From Deltaproteobacteria bacterium (GTDB lineage Bacteria; Myxococcota_A; UBA9160; JAFDDA01): a stretch of DNA of 64,000 nucleotides. Position numbers and translations under genes: made by a program. Positions 3,034 to 46,876 of the stretch are shown here, piece by piece. How positions within the stretch are numbered: position 1 is the stretch's first letter; every line of letters starts with the position of its first letter. The DNA is taken from contig JAFDDA010000014.1 of NCBI GenBank assembly GCA_019311105.1, positions 1-64,000 on the forward strand. Reading direction: 5' to 3'. Below the pieces are notes generated by a model that was given only the letters and a program-made list of their open reading frames with translations, did no database searches and was not told where the DNA came from.

Positions 3034-3804
3034 CTAACGGAAATCCTTGAAGTGGAAGACGACGGAGCCGAGCAGCAGCACGACCGAGATGTAGGCCAGG
3101 CCGTAGAGCAGCGGAAACCACACCTCGGCGGGTGTGACCGGCAAGCCGTGGAGCGCCTCGACGGTGAGGTTGAAGCTCTCGAGGTCGGGCAAGAGCCGGT
3201 AGAGGACGTTCGCCGCCGTCTTCACCGACTCGACGTCGGATTGGCTACCGAGCTGCTTCAGGTCGCGCGTCAGATGGCCCACGACATAGAAACCGCCCGT
3301 AAAGAACGAGGCCAGCATCGGCGTGGTGAAGGCGGAGAAGAACGTCGCGATCGCAACGAGCATCGCCACCTCCCCCGCCGTCAGCAGCAGGGCATAGAAG
3401 TGCTGGGCGTGGATCGGCGCGCCGGTCAGGTAGGAGACGGCCAGGAAGGCCACGCTCATCACGATGACCTGCATCCAGACCGTCGCCACGAGGCCCAGGT
3501 ACTTGCCGATCAGGAACTCCCAGCGGGCCACCGACTTCGTGACGATCGTGTAGATCGTGCGCCGGTCCACTTCCTTGTGGATCAGACCCACACCGAGGAA
3601 GATCGAGATCAGCGCCGAGAAGAGCCGGATCGCCGAGAGCCCGACGTCCTGGATGATGCGCTCCTGTTCGACGTAGGAGAGCGTCGAGAGCAGCACGCCC
3701 ACGCCGATCAGCAGGACGGCGAAGAACACCAGGGCGTAGAGGACCTTGTTCCGCACGGCTTCTCGCACGGTGTTGTTCGCGATGGTCGCGATGCGGCCGA
3801 ACAT
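3034..3804 (-). CDS. pilI: ABC-2 type transporter permease (PilI-like by synteny)
   Basis: Start [34 protein letters not shown]; polytopic; start overlaps stop of upstream ATPase at 3804. Confidence 0.75.
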   Translation of the reverse strand: MFGRIATIANNTVREAVRNKVLYALVFFAVLLIGVGVLLSTLSYVEQERIIQDVGLSAIRLFSALISIFLGVGLIHKEVDRRTIYTIVTKSVARWEFLIGKYLGLVATVWMQVIVMSVAFLAVSYLTGAPIHAQHFYALLLTAGEVAMLVAIATFFSAFTTPMLASFFTGGFYVVGHLTRDLKQLGSQSDVESVKTAANVLYRLLPDLESFNLTVEALHGLPVTPAEVWFPLLYGLAYISVVLLLGSVVFHFKDFR

Positions 3805-4769
3805 CACAGGCCCTCCTGTTCGCGCGCGTGTGTCGTCTCTTCGACGGTTTCCAGGAAGATCGATTCCAGCGAGACGCGGACCGGAGTCACCGAAAGAACC
3901 TGAGCGCCCGCCTCGAGACACGCACGCAGCAGATCGCTCACGATCTTCTCCGGAACGCGGGCTTCGACCTGCTGGCCATGGTCTCGCAGCTCTGCCCGGA
4001 AGCGCTCTTCGAGGGTCGAGGCCAGCTCCGCCGACACGTTCGCCAGCACGACGTCGGCCCTCTGCTGATCCGAAGAGATGAAGTGTTCGATCTGGCCTTC
4101 GTAGCGGATCTTGCCCTCGACGATGATGGCCACGCGATCGCACACCATCTCGACGTCGGACAGGATGTGGGTGTTCATGAAGACGGTCTTGCCGTCGGAG
4201 CGCAGCCGCAGGATCAGATCGCGGATCTCCTTGCGTCCCAGCGGGTCGAGTCCGCTCATGGGCTCGTCGAGGAACACGATCTGCGGGTCGTGGATCAACG
4301 CCTGGGCGATGCCCGCGCGCTGCAGCATGCCCTTCGAGTAGGTACGGAGGCGCGCATCGCCGGCGTGGGAGAGGCCCACCCAGCCGAGCAGCGTCGCGAT
4401 CCGCTCGGGCCGATCGGCGCGCGGGACGCCCGACAGCTTGGCGTAGAAGTCGAGGAACTCGACGCCGGTCAGGTAGTCGTAGAAGTACGAGACCTCCGGA
4501 AGGAAGCCCACGTGCTTTCGGAAGCCCGACTCCTGGATGTCGTGGCCCAGGATGCTGGCCGTGCCTGCCGTCGGACGGATGAGACCCATCAGCGTCTTCA
4601 GCATCGTGGTCTTGCCCGCGCCGTTCGGCCCGACGAGTCCGAAGATTTCGTTCTCCTGCACGCTGAAGGTGATGCCGTCGAGCACCCGCTTGGCGCGCAG
4701 ACCCAGCCCTGGTCGGAACTCCTTGACGAGGCCCTCGACCCGGACGACTTCCCGGCCTTCCGTTGTCAT
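3804..4769 (-). CDS. pilH: ABC transporter ATP-binding protein (PilH-like by synteny)
   Basis: [38 protein letters not shown] (Walker A), [33 protein letters not shown] (signature and Walker B). Confidence 0.85.
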
Positions 4770-7405: not shown

Positions 7406-10400
7406 ATGACTCAGGAGATGAAACGCGCCGTCGTCACAGCCGCCCTGCTCTTCTCCGGGCTCACGGCCCTGGTGTATCAGGTGCTCTGGACCCGGCTGCT
7501 CGGCTTCGTCTTTGGCACGACCAGCGAAGCCATCGGTAGCGTGCTCGCGATCTTCTTCACCGGAATGGCGCTCGGCAACTGGTGGGCCGCCCGACGGCTC
7601 GGCCGGGTCGAGCGACCGTTGCGCGTGTATGGCTTGCTGGAAATGGGGATCGGGGTGTGGGCCCTCCTTTCTCTCCCGTTGTTGCACGCCCTGCCCGGCC
7701 TCTACGGCCTTCTCGGGGGCGACCCCGGCCCTGGCCTGACAGCGGTCTTGCGCCTCGCGGGCACTGCGGTCGTTCTGTTGCCACCGACCATTGCCATGGG
7801 CGCGACCCTGCCCGTGGTGGCGCGTGGCGTGGTGGGGGACGACGCGACGCTTGGGCGCTGGAGCGCGGTGCTCTATGCGGCGAACACGCTCGGCGCCGTG
7901 GTCGGTGCCTACCTCTGTGGCTTCTGGCTCTTGCCCGGCATCGGCCTCACCGCCTCGGTCCAACTCGGTGCGGCGCTGAACCTGGCGGTCGGAGCTGCGG
8001 CCGTGGCTCTCGTCGGCTCCGCACCGGCCGCCGCACGGATGCAGCCCGAGCAGGCCATGCCGCGCCCGGCGTCCAACCCACTCGATCACCGCGCCGCCTT
8101 CCTCGCCTTCTTTGCCATCTCGGGCTTCGTGGCCATCGGCTACGAGATCGTCTGGTCGAAGGTCTTCGGGATCGTGATGGAAGGGACGGTCTACGGGTTC
8201 TCCGCCGTGCTGGCGGCCTACCTGGCCGGCATCGCGCTGGGCAGTGCCGCCGTTGCACCCTTCGTCGACCGGCTGCGCGACCTGCCACGCGCCTTTGGCC
8301 TGCTCCATGTGGGAGCCGGCGTGGCGGTGGCCGTCGGCATCGTCGCGGTGCCCTACCTGCCTTGGGCCCACGCTCGTCTGGCCGCCGCCGCAACCGGGAG
8401 CGATGCAGTCCACCTGCTCTTCTTGCTGGTCCTCCCCATCGTGCTCGTGCCAACGGCGCTCTTTGGTGCGGCGTTCCCGATCCTCATCCGCATCTACACC
8501 GACCGCGCCGAGAACGTGGGCGAGGGCATGGGCCGCGCCATCTCGGTCAACACCGCCGGCAGCATCGTGTCGAGTCTGCTCGTCGGGTTCTGGGCGATCC
8601 CCACCCTGGGGATGGACCGCACCCTCCATGCACTCATTCTCGTCGACCTCGGCCTTGCGACCACCGTGTTGCTGGGGTTCCAGGCCACGCGCGGGCCGGG
8701 CCGCATGCCGTCCCTCGGCGCCGCCGCGGCGGGCTTCGTGCTGGTGGCGTTCGGCTACAACGGCGTGCACGCGGAGCTGGCAGTGGCCGGGCGCAATGTC
8801 GACGCCGAGACACTCCCCGCCTATCGGGCCGCACTGGCCGAGCGATCCTCGAAGCAGATCTTCGTCCGCGAAGGGCGAAACGCCATCGTCACGGTCAGCG
8901 ACGAGCTGGGCTCGCGCCGGCTCCGCACGAACGGACTGCCCGAGGCCGCCGTGAACCTGGGCCCGCCCTATAGCCCGGCCGCGACGAGCTTGCTCGGCGC
9001 CGTGCCGTACCTCGTGGCCGAGCGACCCGAGCGCGCCCTCGTGATCGGCCTGGGCGCGGGCAGCACGGTCGAAACCCTGCTGCGAACCCCCGTGCCCAAG
9101 ATCGAGGTGGTGGAGCTCGAGCCCGGCGTCGTACAGGCCATGGGAGTGCTTCACGCCGGGCGCGCGAACCCACTCGAAGACCCGCGCGTCACGCTCCATA
9201 CAAACGACGGCCGAAACGTATTGCTGCGCGCACGCCACTCCAACGCCCCGGGCTGGGACGTGATCGCATCGCAACCGAGCCATCCCTGGTTGATCGGAGC
9301 GGCCAACCTGTTCACCGAGGAGTACTTCTCCCTCGCACGGGATGCCCTGCGACCGGGCGGGGCCTTCGCGGTCTGGGTGAACGGGTTCCGCACGGATCGC
9401 GAAGCCTTCCTCGCTCTCGTCGCGAGCTTCGGGCGCGTCTTCCCGGGCGCGATGGTGGCCGACGTCTCGGCGAGCCACGACCGCTCGGCATTCCTGCTGC
9501 TCGGGATGCGCGAGCCCGGAGCGCTCGACCCCGCACAGATTCGCGAGCGACTGGGTCACGCCCCCCTCGCCGCCCACCTGGCCCACCACGGCCTCGCCGA
9601 GGCCGAGGCAATCCTCGCTCGCTTCGAAGGGCGCGCCGAAGATTTCACCACCCTCGCCGGCGGCGCTCGCAACACCGATGACAACGCCTACATCGAGACG
9701 CGCATTCCGCGCCAGCTCGAGTGGAAGGGCCTCAACTGGGAGGGCATCGAGTCGGAACTTCCGCTCGCAGCCCCCGTGCTCCCGCCGCTCGCCCAACCGG
9801 TTTCCACCCACGCAATCGCACGCCACATCCTCGACTCGATGGCCGCCGGCAGCGAGCCGCGCCCGACGCACAAGATCGAACGACTCCTCACCCAGCTCGG
9901 CGCGGGGCTCGATGACTACGACGCAAGGCTCCTGCGTGCCGAAGCGGGCCTGTTCGATCCGGCGGCGCGGACGGCGAGTGCGGCGGCGCTGCTCGCCCTC
10001 GCCGAAGCCGACCCCGGGCGGCCTGAGCCCTGGCGAATCCTCGGGCGCCATCACGCCACACGGCGGCGCGACTTCGCCCGGGCGGGCGAAGCGTTCGCCG
10101 CCGCGCATGCCCGCAGCGCGTCCGCCCAGGATGCCTACGACGCGGCTCGCGCCTTCGATTACGTGGCCCCGGAGCGCGCCTTGCGGATGATCGAACGCAT
10201 CCCCGCGGCCGAACGGCCGCGCTTCCCGCGCCTCGTCTGGTACGAGGCCAAGCGCGCCTTGCGGGCTGGCGAGAGCGGGCCGGGCCTGGCCGACACCCTC
10301 GCGGCACTGCGCCGCTATCGCGAAACGAGCGAGGGCCGACGGATCCCCGGTGTGAACCTCACCCTGGCGCGCCTGGCCGAAGCCACCGGCGACGAGCCGC

Positions 10401-14460: not shown

Positions 14461-14964
14461 TCAGAGCTTGCCGGGCACCACCCACCACGCGCCGTCGACC
14501 CGCTCCCAGACGTCCTCGCGCTCGAGCACGATCGTCCAGAATCGGAGAGGCAACCCGTTGTCACCGCGCATCCGAACGGCAACCCGCGCGCGGCCCGGCC
14601 CCTCGACGGCGAACTCCTTGACCTGCGCCATGACCGCCCGGTTGCGCTCGAAGTCGACCTGGTCGAGGTCGTGGGCGAGGTCGGCGTAGTAGTCGTAGAA
14701 CGCCTCCTTGTTGAGGAAGTGGTCGCGCAGGACGGCGTCCGAGTAGGTGGCGAAGGTGTTGAAGCGGCGGCGGGAGAGCCGGCTGTAGAAGGCCTGCGCT
14801 CGCGTCTGGAACTCGATGATCGTGCGTTGATCCACGACCTCGACGCCCTGGGAGACGTCGGGCTGCGGCCCCTTGGGCGGCCCGTAGAAGCCGTCGACCC
14901 AGCCGCGAATGCCGCAGCCGGAAAGCAGCAGGGCGAAGGCAATGGCGAGCCCGGTGCGGATCAT
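14461..14964 (-). CDS. Hypothetical lipoprotein
   Basis: [22 protein letters not shown] lipobox; 4 bp overlap with ppdK stop. Confidence 0.75.
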
Positions 14965-17665
14965 TGGCCCTTCCTCTTTCGCTTCGCCTTCTTCTTGGGC
15001 GACTTGGAGACCTTCTTGTGGCCCGCTTCCGGCGCCGCAGCGATCGCGGCCTGGGCGGCCGCGAGCCGTGCGACAGGCACACGGTAGGGAGAGCAGGACA
15101 CGTAGTCGAGCCCGGTGCGCGAACAGAAGGCGACGGATTTCGCGTCGCCGCCGTGCTCGCCGCAAATGCCGACCTTGAGGTTGGGGTGGCTCGACCGGCC
15201 CTTCTCGACCCCGATCCGGATCAGCTCGCCGATGCCCTCCTCGTCGATGGAGACGAAGGGGTCGTCCTCGAGAATCCCCTGCTCGATGTAGTCGGGCAGG
15301 AACTTCCCGGCGTCGTCGCGCGAGAGCGCATAGGTCATCTGGGTGAGGTCGTTGGTGCCGAAGGAGAAGAAGTCGGCGTGGCGGGCGATCTCGTCTGCAA
15401 CGAGCGCGGCACGGGGCACCTCGATCATGGTGCCGATCGCCGAGCGGAAGCGTCGGCCGTGCTCGGCCTGGACCGCACGGATCTCTACCTGGCAGAGCGC
15501 GCGCAGCTTCTCGAGCTCCCCGACGTGTGCCACGAGCGGGATCATGATCTCCGGCTTCACCGCGACCCCGGAGGCCGCGACCTCGCACGCCGCTTCGGCG
15601 ATGGCACGGACCTGCATGCGGTAGATCTCGGGGAAGGTGATGCCGAGCCGGCAGCCGCGGTGGCCGAGCATCGGGTTGAACTCGTTCAAGCCTTCGATCC
15701 GCGCTCGGACCTCGGGCACGCTGCGCCCGAGCTTGCCCGCGACCTCCGCCATCTCGTCCTCGGTCTGCGGCAGGAACTCGTGCAGGGGCGGGTCGAGCAG
15801 GCGGATCGTGACCGGCAGGCCCTCCATGGCGCGGAAGATCCCTGCGAAGTCGCCACGCTGCATGGGCAGCAACTTTTCGAGGGCCTCGAGCCGCTGGCCC
15901 ACGTCTGCGGCCAGGATCATCTGGCGCACGGCCAGGATGCGATCGGCCTCGAAGAACATGTGCTCGGTTCGGCAGAGGCCGATCCCTTCGGCGCCGAACT
16001 CGCGAGCCACCTTGGCATCGTTCGGGGTGTCGGCGTTCGTGCGGACCCGGAGCGTCCGGCGGCGATCCGCCCAGCGCATGAGCTGACCGAACTCCGGGTC
16101 GAGCTCCGGCATCACCGTAGCCACGGTGCCCAAGATCACCTCGCCCGTGCTGCCGTCGAGGGTGAGCGGGTCGCCGGCGCGGAGGACGTGCTCGCCGAGG
16201 TGGACCTCGCCGGCCTTGCGATCGACGCGCAGCTCACCGCAACCGACCACACAGCACTTGCCCATGCCGCGCGCAACCACCGCCGCGTGGGAGGTCATGC
16301 CGCCCCGGGCGGTCAGGATGCCCTCGGCGGCGTCCATGCCATGGATGTCCTCGGGCGACGTCTCCGTCCGCACGAGCACGACCTTCTGGCCGGCCTTGCC
16401 GCGCGTCTCCGCCTCGTCGGCGGTCAGGACGATGATCCCGGTCGCGGCGCCGGGTGACGCGGGCAGCCCCTTGGCGAGGACGTTGCGCTCGGCGTCCGGG
16501 TCGAGGTGATCAGCCGCTCGCGAGCCATGTCGACGGCGATCTTCACGGCGGCGCGCACGGTCCGCTTGCCGTCGCGCGTTTGCAGCATCCAGAGCTTCCC
16601 GCGTTGGATCGTGAACTCGATGTCCTGCATGTCGCGGTAGTGCTTCTCGAGCCGCTTGTAGATGCGGACCAGCTCCTTGTAGGGGCCCGGCATCTCGCTC
16701 TCGAGGGTCGGCAGGCCCTGTTGCGCCGGCGAGCGGTTGTCGTCGTTGATGGGCTGGGGCGTGCGGATGCCCGCGACCACGTCTTCGCCCTGGGCGTTCT
16801 TCAGCCACTCGCCGTAGAACATGCGGGAACCGGTTGCGGGGTTTCGCGTGAAGGCGACCCCCGTGGCGCAGTCGTCGCCCATGTTCCCAAAGACCATGGC
16901 CTGGACGTTCACCGCCGTGCCCCACTCCGACGAGATCCCCTGCATCTGCCGATAGCGACGCGCTCGATCGTTCTGCCACGAGTCGAACACCGCCGCGACG
17001 GCGCCGCGCAGCTGCACCATCGGGTCCTGGGGGAAGGGCTTGCCCGAGAGGGCCTCGACGGTTTCGAGGTAGGTGCCGACCAGCGCGCGCAGGTCGGCGC
17101 CGCTGAGTTCGGTGTCGTTGCGGACGCCCCGGGTGCGCTTGAGGTCGTCGAGGTGCTCTTCGAAGCGCTCGCGGGGCACGCCGAGCACCACGTCGCCGTA
17201 CATCTGGACGAAGCGCCGGTAGCTGTCCCAGGCGAAGCGATCCTCGGCGCCTCGCGCGAGTCCGTGAACGGTGCGGTCGTTCAAGCCGAGGTTCAGCACG
17301 GTGTCCATCATGCCGGGCATCGAGACACGCGCCCCGGAGCGCACGGAGACGAGCAGGGGCTCGGACGGGTCACCGAAGCGGAGACCCATCGTCTTCTCGA
17401 TGCGCGCGAGAGCCGCACGCACACGCTCCCAGACGTCGCGCGGGATGCGCCGCCCTCCGGCATTGTAACGGCCACACACGTCGGTAGAGATGGTGAAGCC
17501 CGGCGGAACCGGGATGCCGAGGTTCGTCATCTCGGCGAGGTTCGCGCCCTTGCCACCGAGGCTGTCGCGCAGCTCCGCACGGCCGTCGGCCTTGCCCGCA
17601 CCGAAGAAGTAGACCGACCTCGCGGTCGCGCGTCGGGCGGCGGGCTTCTTCTTGCGCGCCGCCAT
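14961..17665 (-). pseudogene. ppdK: Pyruvate, phosphate dikinase, interrupted by an internal deletion/frameshift near 16500
   Basis: N-terminal part in ORF 16424-17665 ([37 protein letters not shown]); C-terminal part in another frame in ORF 14961-16979 ([44 protein letters not shown]). About 20 expected linker residues are absent at the junction. Confidence 0.85.
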
Positions 17666-18993
17666 CAGCCTTCGATGCGCTCGGCCAGCCAGGCCGCAAC
17701 GCCTTCGATCGGGATCCGATCCTGGCGCATCGAATCGCGCTCACGCACGGTCACCTGGCCATCGGTCTCGGAGTCGAAGTCGTAGGTGACACAGAACGGC
17801 GTGCCCGCCTCGTCCTGACGCCGATAGCGCTTGCCGATGTTTCCGGACACGTCGAAGTAGGCATTCATGCGCTTGCGCAGGTCGCGCGCCAGCTTCTCGG
17901 CGGGCTCGGCGAGCTTTTTCGACAACGGCAGCACGGCGGCCTTGATCGGCGCGAGCGCCGGGTGGAAGCGCATCACCGTCCGCTGGTCGCCCCCCTCGAG
18001 ATCTTCTTCCGCGTAGGCATCGCAGAGCAGCGCGAGGGTCGTGCGGTCGATCCCGACCGAGGTTTCAACGACATGGGGGATGAACTTCTCCTTCGTCTGG
18101 TCATCGACGTAGGAGAGATCCTTGCCCGCGTATTCGGTGTGGCGCGTGAGGTCCCAATCGCCGCGATCGTGGATGCCCTCGATCTCCTGCCAGCCGAAGG
18201 GGAAGAGATATTCGACGTCGCACGCCGCATTGCAGTAGTGGGCCAGCTCGTCGGGCTCGTGGTCGCGCTGGCGCAGATGCTCGGGGCGAAGCCCGATCTC
18301 CTGATGGAAGGCGAAGCGCTCTGCGAGCCAATACTGGAACCACTTCTCGCGGTCGGCCGGCGCCACGAAGAACTCGAGCTCCGCCTGTTCGAACTCACGC
18401 GAACGGAATGTGAAGTTGCGCGGGTTGATCTCGTTTCGGAAGGCTTTCCCGATCTGTGCGATCCCGAAGGGAAGCTTCTGGCGCGCGGCCTCGCGGACGC
18501 GTTTGAAGTCCGTGAAGATCGACTGGCAGGTCTCGGCGCGCAGATAGGCCGTTGCGGCGGCCTCTTCCGAGGCGCCGATGAAGGTCTTCAACATCAGGTT
18601 GAAGTTGCGCGGGTCCGTGAAGTCGTGGGCGCCGCCTTCGCTGCACTTGCCGATGCCCTCGAGCTGGTCGGCCCGGAAGCGCTTCTTGCACGCCTTGCAG
18701 TCGACCATCGGGTCGCTGAAGTGCTCGACGTGGCCCGAGGCCTCCCAGGTCTTGGGGTGGCAGATGATCGAGCTGTCGATGCCCTCGACATCGTCGCGCT
18801 CGCGCACCATGCGCTGCCACCAGCGCGCCTTCAGGTTGTTCTTGAGTTCGACACCCAGGGGCCCGTAGTCCCAGAAGCCATTGATCCCGCCGTAGATCTC
18901 GCTCGAGGCGAAGATGAAGCCTCGTCGGGCGCAGAGAGACACGAGGTCTTCCATGCGCACGGATCGCGTCGGGGCGTCGGAATCGGCCGTCAT
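17665..18993 (-). CDS. glyQS: Glycyl-tRNA synthetase (dimeric type)
   Basis: [79 protein letters not shown]. Confidence 0.95.
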
Positions 18994-19067
18994 CACTCGT
19001 CTTTCCTGGTCTGAGGAAGGGGGAGCATCCACGGGCGGGCTTTCGCTGTCAATGGTTTGGGAGGTGG

Positions 19068-19252
19068 GGCCGGAGGGGGGTGCCGCGCTCCGTTGCGCTC
19101 GCGGGTCGGACGGAAGGGACATGGCCCTCTTGCTCCCTTCGAACTACGAGATCCAGCGCGGCCTCGGGCCCTCGGCGTGCCCACCGCGTGGCAGCGCGGG
19201 TTGCTACCTCGGGTTCGTCCGCTCCACTCCGGCGCGGCACCCCCCTCCAGCC
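19068..19252 (+). repeat. Palindrome-ended intergenic element, copy A
   Basis: Perfect 17 bp arms 19072-19088 / 19232-19248 (extendable with one mismatch); core aligns with copy B including TGGCCCT at the same 33 nt offset from the left arm. Confidence 0.8.
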
Positions 19253-19262
19253 TAGTGGCGTG

Positions 19263-19330
19263 TTTGCGTTGGCATGGAACGAGGCGCGGTGACGGGTTTG
19301 CGTTGGCAAGGGCCGAGGCGCGGTGACGGC
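19263..19330. repeat. 34 bp tandem repeat x2 between elements A and B
   Basis: tttgcgttggcatggaacgaggcgcggtgacggg / tttgcgttggcaagggccgaggcgcggtgacggc. Confidence 0.9.
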
Positions 19331-19331
19331 A

Positions 19332-19515
19332 GCCGGCGGGTGGGTGTCGTTGCGCAGCGCAGCCCAAACCCACCGAACCCGAACCAAGCGCCAACCCGCT
19401 CCAACCCCGAGGGCCCTAAGTCGCTAGGGACCTCAATGCCCGAAGCGAGCAATAGGGCCACGCCGTCTCCGGCACACATGCAGGCGAAGCGGAGCAACGA
19501 CACCCACCCGCCGGC
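19332..19515 (-). repeat. Palindrome-ended intergenic element, copy B (opposite orientation to A)
   Basis: Perfect 22 bp inverted arms gccggcgggtgggtgtcgttgc (19332-19353) / gcaacgacacccacccgccggc (19494-19515); core homologous to A on the minus strand. Confidence 0.85.
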
Positions 19516-19531
19516 CGACCTCCCAACCCAG

Positions 19532-20254
19532 CTAACCAGGCTTCCGAACCACCACCAGATGGTTGTTCGGCTCCTCCTCGAGGTCTCCCAGGCTGAAGAA
19601 GAGGGCAATCGGCAGCGCCACCAGGGCGAACAGCGCCATCCAGGGCCACAACAGGTAGAACGACCACGGCCGGCGGATTCTTGCATCGGACATGCCGCCG
19701 AAGCGAGCGCTCTGAAGGAAGAAATAGACCAGGTGGGAAGCCATCGACGACCACACACCTCCGAGTGCCTGGTGCTCCGAGCCTTCCAGGCCGGCCTCCT
19801 CGATGACGCGCTCGATCCAGTAGCGGCTGAAGTTGCCGTGGTAGTCCGGTGCGAGGTGGGTGGTCGACGTCTGCGGGATGAGCAGGACGGCATGACCGCC
19901 CGGGCGCAACACCCGGCTGATCTCGCGGACCATCTCGATGGGTTCGAAGACATGTTCGAGCACTTGAATACACAGAACGGTGTCGACGCTCCCGTCCGCG
20001 ATGCCCATCCGGCAACCGTCACTGCGGACGAGGTGGACGCGCGAGTCGACGTTCTGGCCCGGCGAGCGATCGCTCGGCTCGAGGACGGTCCATGCGTCGA
20101 ACTGCACGCCCTGCCCGACGGCGGTTTCCACGAAATCCCAGCCTCCGACGTCGAGAACGTGGCCTCGGGCGAAGCGACGAATGGCGTCGAACATGGAACG
20201 CGACCGGAGATCCCGTGCCCGGTAGAGGGCCCGGATCATGGGGCTCTTGGACAA
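19532..20254 (-). CDS. Class I SAM-dependent methyltransferase with C-terminal transmembrane segment
   Basis: HVLDVGGWDF..GSVDTVLCIQVLEHVFEPIEMVREISRVLRPGG. Confidence 0.85.
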   Translation of the reverse strand: MSKSPMIRALYRARDLRSRSMFDAIRRFARGHVLDVGGWDFVETAVGQGVQFDAWTVLEPSDRSPGQNVDSRVHLVRSDGCRMGIADGSVDTVLCIQVLEHVFEPIEMVREISRVLRPGGHAVLLIPQTSTTHLAPDYHGNFSRYWIERVIEEAGLEGSEHQALGGVWSSMASHLVYFFLQSARFGGMSDARIRRPWSFYLLWPWMALFALVALPIALFFSLGDLEEEPNNHLVVVRKPG

Positions 20255-46484: not shown

Positions 46485-46501
46485 CCCCCTCCGAGGCGGG
46501 C

Positions 46502-46646
46502 GGAGCGGCGGCCGGGGGTTCCTTCCGCGAATGGCTCGCTTTCCGTGGCGTGTGAGTACGCAGCGTCTTCCGACGCCTCGGGTTCCGAGCCGCGCGAACC
46601 TGTGGCTGCGCTTTATTTCGCTCCAGGAACCCCCGCCCACCGCTCC
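46502..46646 (+). repeat. Palindrome-ended intergenic element, copy C1
   Basis: 22 bp arms 46502-46523 / 46625-46646 (20/22 complementary); blocks TCCGCGAATGGCTCGC (46524-46539) and CGCTTTATTTCGCT (46609-46622). Confidence 0.85.
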
Positions 46647-46707
46647 ACTTCCAACGTGGGAGGCCAGAAGGAAAAACCACCCCCCCCCCCAACGTCACTG
46701 GCGGGTC

Positions 46708-46863
46708 GGGCGTCGGAGAGTTCCCGCAGCGAAATAAAGCGGAGCGGCGCCGCAGCTCGCAGAAGGAAGAACCCTCCACGTCCACTTCGCCGATAGCGCC
46801 AGTGACGGCGAGCCTTGTGCGGCGCATTCGCGAGCCATTCGCGGAGGGAACTCTCCGACGCCC
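46708..46863 (-). repeat. Palindrome-ended intergenic element, copy C2 (inverted relative to C1)
   Basis: Perfect 18 bp arms gggcgtcggagagttccc (46708-46725) / gggaactctccgacgccc (46846-46863); same two internal blocks as C1 in reverse complement (46830-46845, 46728-46741). Confidence 0.87.
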
Positions 46864-46876
46864 GGCCCGCCCCGCC

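Follow-up and report, generated by a model that had tools for sequence, protein, structure and literature searches.

The elements A and B, which lie between a methyltransferase gene and glyS, are homologous to each other and stand in inverted orientation. They are found at a single locus in the window (the whole stretch of 64,000 nucleotides that was analysed), most likely as an inverted duplicate. We consider that they might be diverged inverted copies of a palindromic module of ~185 bp serving as a stem-loop at the 3' end of the methyltransferase gene, and we put the probability of this reading at about one half. As one locus, the pair is of modest importance; as a clean inverted duplicate whose hairpin arms were altered five times in step, it is useful for studies on the maintenance of palindromes.

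Structure and homology of the pair

The layout is summarized in Table 1. The sequence-only reading had described an inverted pair here, and its arms and coordinates were confirmed: the arms of A are 95% complementary with a perfect run of 17 nt, and those of B have a perfect core of 22 nt inside a 34-nt arm at 85%. Each element has TGGCCCT exactly 33 nt inside its left arm (in A from 19122; in B, on the minus strand, from 19460), and each interior opens with TCCG, as had also been read. The orientation had been called head-to-head; because the 5' ends of A and B point outwards, the pair is tail-to-tail. Two tandem repeats of 34 bp take up most of the spacer between A and B.

Table 1. Coordinates of the A/B pair, its flanking genes, and the other repeats
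Feature	Position	Strand	Remarks
glyS (GlyRS; tRNA-synt_2b + HGTP_anticodon)	17665..19014	-	likely start near 18996
Outer box of A, TGGTTTGGGAGGT	19053..19065	+	also in B, beyond the arms; from A/B alignments
Element A	19068-19252	+	two 21-nt arms, mismatched at one position
Left arm of A, GGCCGGAGGGGGGTGCCGCGC	19068..19088	+	
Interior of A	19089..19231	+	starts with TCCG straight after the arm
Interior motif of A, TGGCCCTCTTGCTCCCTTCG	19122-19141	+	
Interior motif of A, GGGCCCTCGG	starts at 19166	+	
Right arm of A, GCGCGGCACCCCCCTCCAGCC	19232..19252	+	a single C.A mismatch to the left arm, read as G.U on the minus strand
A-B spacer	19255..19322	+	34-bp direct repeat in two tandem copies, 85% identity
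Element B	19332-19515	-	arms of 22 nt, perfect
3' arm of B	19332..19353	-	22 nt, perfect
Interior of B	19354..19493	-	contains TGGCCCTATTGCTCGCTTCG at 19460-19441
5' arm of B	19494..19515	-	22 nt, perfect
Outer box of B, TGGGTTGGGAGGT	19518..19530	-	follows the stop codon of the methyltransferase immediately
Class I SAM methyltransferase gene	19532..20254	-	Pfam PF08241; inserted between recO and glyS
C1/C2 elements in the window	46498-46651; 46699-46872	+; -	further elements at L244-L268
Second repeat family, members	L198:6076-6179 and 9732-9819; L202:4331-4420; L203:5782-5883		

Hairpins with a score of at least 16 occurred 23 times in 463 kb of the host genome (a 400-kb sample plus the 64-kb window) against none in a Markov-3 control. 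The best hairpin score per window was 13-18 in 20 simulated windows of 64 kb. The score of B (22) lies above all of these, and that of A (18) equals the top one and is borderline by itself. Despite this borderline score, the pair was accepted as real because homology between A and B extends along their full length: their gapped local alignment covers ~205 nt with a score of 114, whereas shuffled sequences gave 31 ± 5 with a maximum of 56 (n = 1000). The similarity reaches 13 nt beyond the arms, into the box TGGNTTGGGAGGT. The shared core that had been reported was thus confirmed, but its extent was understated, since the homology includes this box.

Seven columns differ between the arms of A and those of B. 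Five of the seven, two indels among them, stay paired in both copies; this bears out the statement that the arms differ in sequence and yet remain self-complementary. In this one comparison of two copies, the chance of five mirrored changes is ~1.6e-7 under a crude model. The other two columns hold C.A in A and G.T in B; each becomes G.U when read on the minus strand, on which the flanking genes lie.

Read in one frame, the cores give ALLLPSNYEIQRGLGPS and ALLLASGIEVPSDLGPS, which differ synonymously at two leucines, as would suit a remnant of coding sequence. However, the mismatches between the 95-nt cores number 10, 13, and 9 at the three codon positions, with no third-position bias. Because they are spread evenly in this way, protein coding did not keep the cores alike. 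In addition, tblastn gave no convincing relatives, and the arm changes are mirrored and the homology runs along the full length. It is extremely improbable that A and B are decayed coding sequence or GC-rich palindromes that arose by chance. The idea of a coding remnant was rejected because mismatches were even across codon positions and arm changes were mirrored. The earlier view that the arms are structurally constrained was upheld.

B alone folds better than its shuffles (-120 kcal/mol; z -5.0), and A alone folds no better than its shuffles (-107 kcal/mol; z -0.97). When A and B were folded jointly as one RNA, the MFE was -286 kcal/mol with a z of -6.2: the A:B duplex is thermodynamically favoured over the two separate hairpins. 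This fold would suit a joint action of the two as one imperfect hairpin of ~200 bp, for example, as a target made of double-stranded RNA or as a cruciform. Such folding is, however, expected of any inverted duplicate, and the differences between A and B, which are mismatches in the joint hairpin, are compensated inside each element. Joint action seems very unlikely; the mirrored changes within each element argue, at the level of sequence, that the separate hairpins and not the joint fold were kept.

Genomic locus and search for further copies

In 23 relatives, all from a named genome collection, glyS comes straight after recO; the gap between them ranges from little or none to about 230 nt. 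In the host locus, the methyltransferase gene, B, and A (~1.24 kb) interrupt this order. Within the host's order, the methyltransferase has few good relatives. This block of the methyltransferase gene and the A/B pair is specific to the lineage and was inserted where the gene junction is otherwise conserved. A possible start of the methyltransferase gene overlaps the stop codon of recO.

The genes around the A/B and C elements were called by codon composition, a crude method applied without a gene finder. By these calls, B starts 16 nt past the stop codon of the methyltransferase gene, in sense. A stands behind no gene end and faces the 5' end of glyS. TTGACA on the strand of glyS adjoins the outer edge of A and may be a replacement promoter of this gene; the promoter scan, which needs a good second hexamer, did not report it.

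Two further observations concern the surroundings. The frame following glyS (14961-17665 of the window, minus strand), which we take from its sequence to be a putative ppdK, consists of two overlapping frames with the change near 16424-16460; this is a frameshift or an assembly error. In one relative, the recO-glyS gap (L117, about 3731-4000) contains repeated GCTCGCCGCTCGCCTTCGGCTCGCTACGC units: the junction took up repeats independently there.

The pair would have arrived with the methyltransferase gene, or would have been duplicated beside it, upon insertion between recO and glyS. A might have been brought along or formed by inverted duplication.

A core pattern with three mismatches matched only A and B, plus looser chance matches. 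A covariance model of the core matched A and B only in the host genome (~90% complete, the copy number referring to that part). The same model gave no credible match in the order's 79 other genomes, and in a phylum sample of 386 genomes it gave none at E 0.003. No copies were found in plasmids, phages, or viral contigs. A search of 41 genomes with A and B by blastn, which is too insensitive for these elements (the query A does not recover B), gave short chance matches only. No A/B-like hairpin was found near the relatives of the methyltransferase in G007, G044, and G046, and no A/B-like pair upstream of glyS in 28 relatives; three of these 28 loci carry short unrelated inverted repeats. The sequence-only reading had named single occurrence without homologues as evidence against itself. 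There is indeed no homologue beyond the two copies in this material, but A and B are homologous to each other.

Three candidates were rejected. A 22-nt exact match to A in contig C221 sits in another, shorter palindrome. The motif GCTCCGYTKCGCYYGC is no commoner than its reversed control. Four weak covariance matches in relatives (E 0.01-0.08) are apparently in coding sequence and have no A/B-like hairpins nearby. As for other repeats in the genome, a second, REP-like family has perfect arms of 30-38 nt, AAGGGGACGGTTCTNTTTGATGACGAAACCA, and measures 88-104 bp in all (Table 1). A long palindrome at L187:299-445, with arms of 49 nt (GCCGCCTAAGGCGGAATTGG...), is unrelated to A/B or C.

Alternatively, A and B might be what is left of an old, now decayed non-autonomous MITE-like element, either as its long terminal inverted repeats or as its entire body; it would have been inserted behind the methyltransferase gene, with the boxes TGGNTTGGGAGGT as its ends. 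Consistent with this, complementarity between the outer ends (19053-19085 and 19498-19530) is 76% along 33 nt, outer box included, and the block is an insertion specific to the lineage at a conserved junction. On the other hand, the two ends are strongly diverged, no direct repeat adjoining 19053 or 19530 was seen by eye, and no transposase gene was seen alongside. The insertion holds the methyltransferase gene too, and neither the host genome, the 79 others of the order, the 386-genome phylum sample, nor the plasmids, phages, and viral contigs hold more copies. We regard such an origin as possible but doubtful.

Relation to the C1/C2 family

The C family, which includes the elements C1 and C2 of the window, is a more striking object than A/B. 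It has 35 matches in the host genome, and matches are present in 34 of the 80 genomes of the order. Its inner motifs GCGAATGGCTCG ... GCTTTATTTCGC are conserved. Rfam gave no match for the C family in the window and none at the gathering score for A/B; only tRNA was matched in the window. The arms of the C elements show 45 two-sided changes against 3 one-sided ones in 270 cells. Counts of G.U and A.C in the C stems, considered as a sign of the transcribed strand, were 15 to 16 and indicated none.

The position of the C elements is regular. By the crude gene calls, 27 of them have an upstream neighbour; 24 of these stand behind that gene in sense, as do all 19 of those no more than 40 nt away from it. 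None was found in divergent gaps in the sample of the host's own genome. The C pair L257 in the relative G019 sits between co-directional genes, in the same arrangement as A/B.

A/B share with the C family the G-rich 5' arm, the covarying arms, the polarity, TCCG after the arm, and the pairing tail to tail. Like C elements, B lies in sense shortly past a stop codon, its 5' end at 16 nt being within the 0-40 nt taken as the mark of the family; A faces the start of glyS. A and B could therefore be viewed as divergent members that lost the signature motifs. However, the C elements have conserved motifs of their own, and GCGAATGGCTCG and GCTTTATTTCGC are absent from A/B. Pairwise alignments of A/B with C1/C2 scored within the shuffle range, and the HMM of the C family gave no match, shuffled A/B reaching 5.2 bits. 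The covariance model of the C family gave 12.1 bits for B and 7.3 bits for A, which is at background, as a coding stretch nearby gave 13.5 bits. Membership of A/B in the C family is already largely refuted as far as sequence can tell, and it seems unlikely.

A common architecture or superfamily had been proposed for the two pairs. The architecture is indeed common to both, but a family relation by sequence was not borne out. The paired arrangement at two loci had been taken as a sign of common origin; it is no strong evidence for this, since several C2-C1 pairs are copies of one unit of ~370 bp. In the order, similar architecture is seen with and without common sequence, so a similar shape should not be taken as a sign of a family.

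A and B may also be one of several long-palindrome pairs that arose independently at gene 3' ends in the order, with arms continually rewritten in concert. We consider this rather unlikely. If it is true, there would be a class of gene-end hairpins set by architecture, in which structure and position are conserved and sequence is not.

Proposed role and comparison with known systems

Because the C elements stand behind stop codons in sense, B was taken to be a stem-loop at a gene end, with A as a mirrored duplicate of it. Judging from its position and by analogy to the C family, B is presumably transcribed and acts in RNA: its hairpin, formed in sense in the nascent transcript just past the stop codon, would end, stall, or protect this transcript. 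A would be the mirror copy serving the opposite strand. The pair would separate the upstream operon from glyS, which seems to have its own TTGACA outside A.

Classical termination is unlikely to be all that B does, because there is no U-run (the terminator scan reported 0 sites in the A/B region) and the loop is 130-140 nt long, as is that of A. The hairpin might equally protect the RNA, cause a pause, or act as a barrier. If the architecture is functional, B would represent a long-loop gene-end hairpin that terminator predictors would miss.

The arms would stay complementary because each change is matched by a second one in the partner arm, whether by template switching within the palindrome, by selection acting on the hairpin, or both. 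Hairpin arms are known to arise and persist by template switching (PMC8794818). By analogy, it would explain the paired changes in the C arms without G.U intermediates, and it may likewise explain those in the arms of A and B, where two copies were compared.

Among the known systems, MITE-like small mobile sequences, such as the enterobacterial RU elements of 103-168 bp (PMC2759123), resemble A/B in size and inverted-repeat build; A/B differ from them in having neither multiple copies nor a visible target duplication. REP/BIME sequences are likewise extragenic palindromes, often behind genes and of alternating orientation. REPs are of 20-40 bp and occur in many copies (PMC3733652); A/B, with ~185 bp and two copies at one place, differ from them in both respects. 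B shares with intrinsic (rho-independent) terminators a GC-rich hairpin behind a stop codon, but it differs in having no U-run and a loop far longer than the classical one. Stem-loops at the 3' ends of coding sequences are a documented general pattern, and some of them form repeated families (Petrillo et al. 2006, PMC1590033). As in that study, A/B are intergenic with a stable stem of at least 12 bp on the 3' side of a coding sequence; their loops exceed the 100-nt limit used there, and two mirrored copies stand at one locus. A is behind no gene end, and it is B that carries a stable stem behind a stop codon, with 22 perfect base pairs at a distance of 16 nt.
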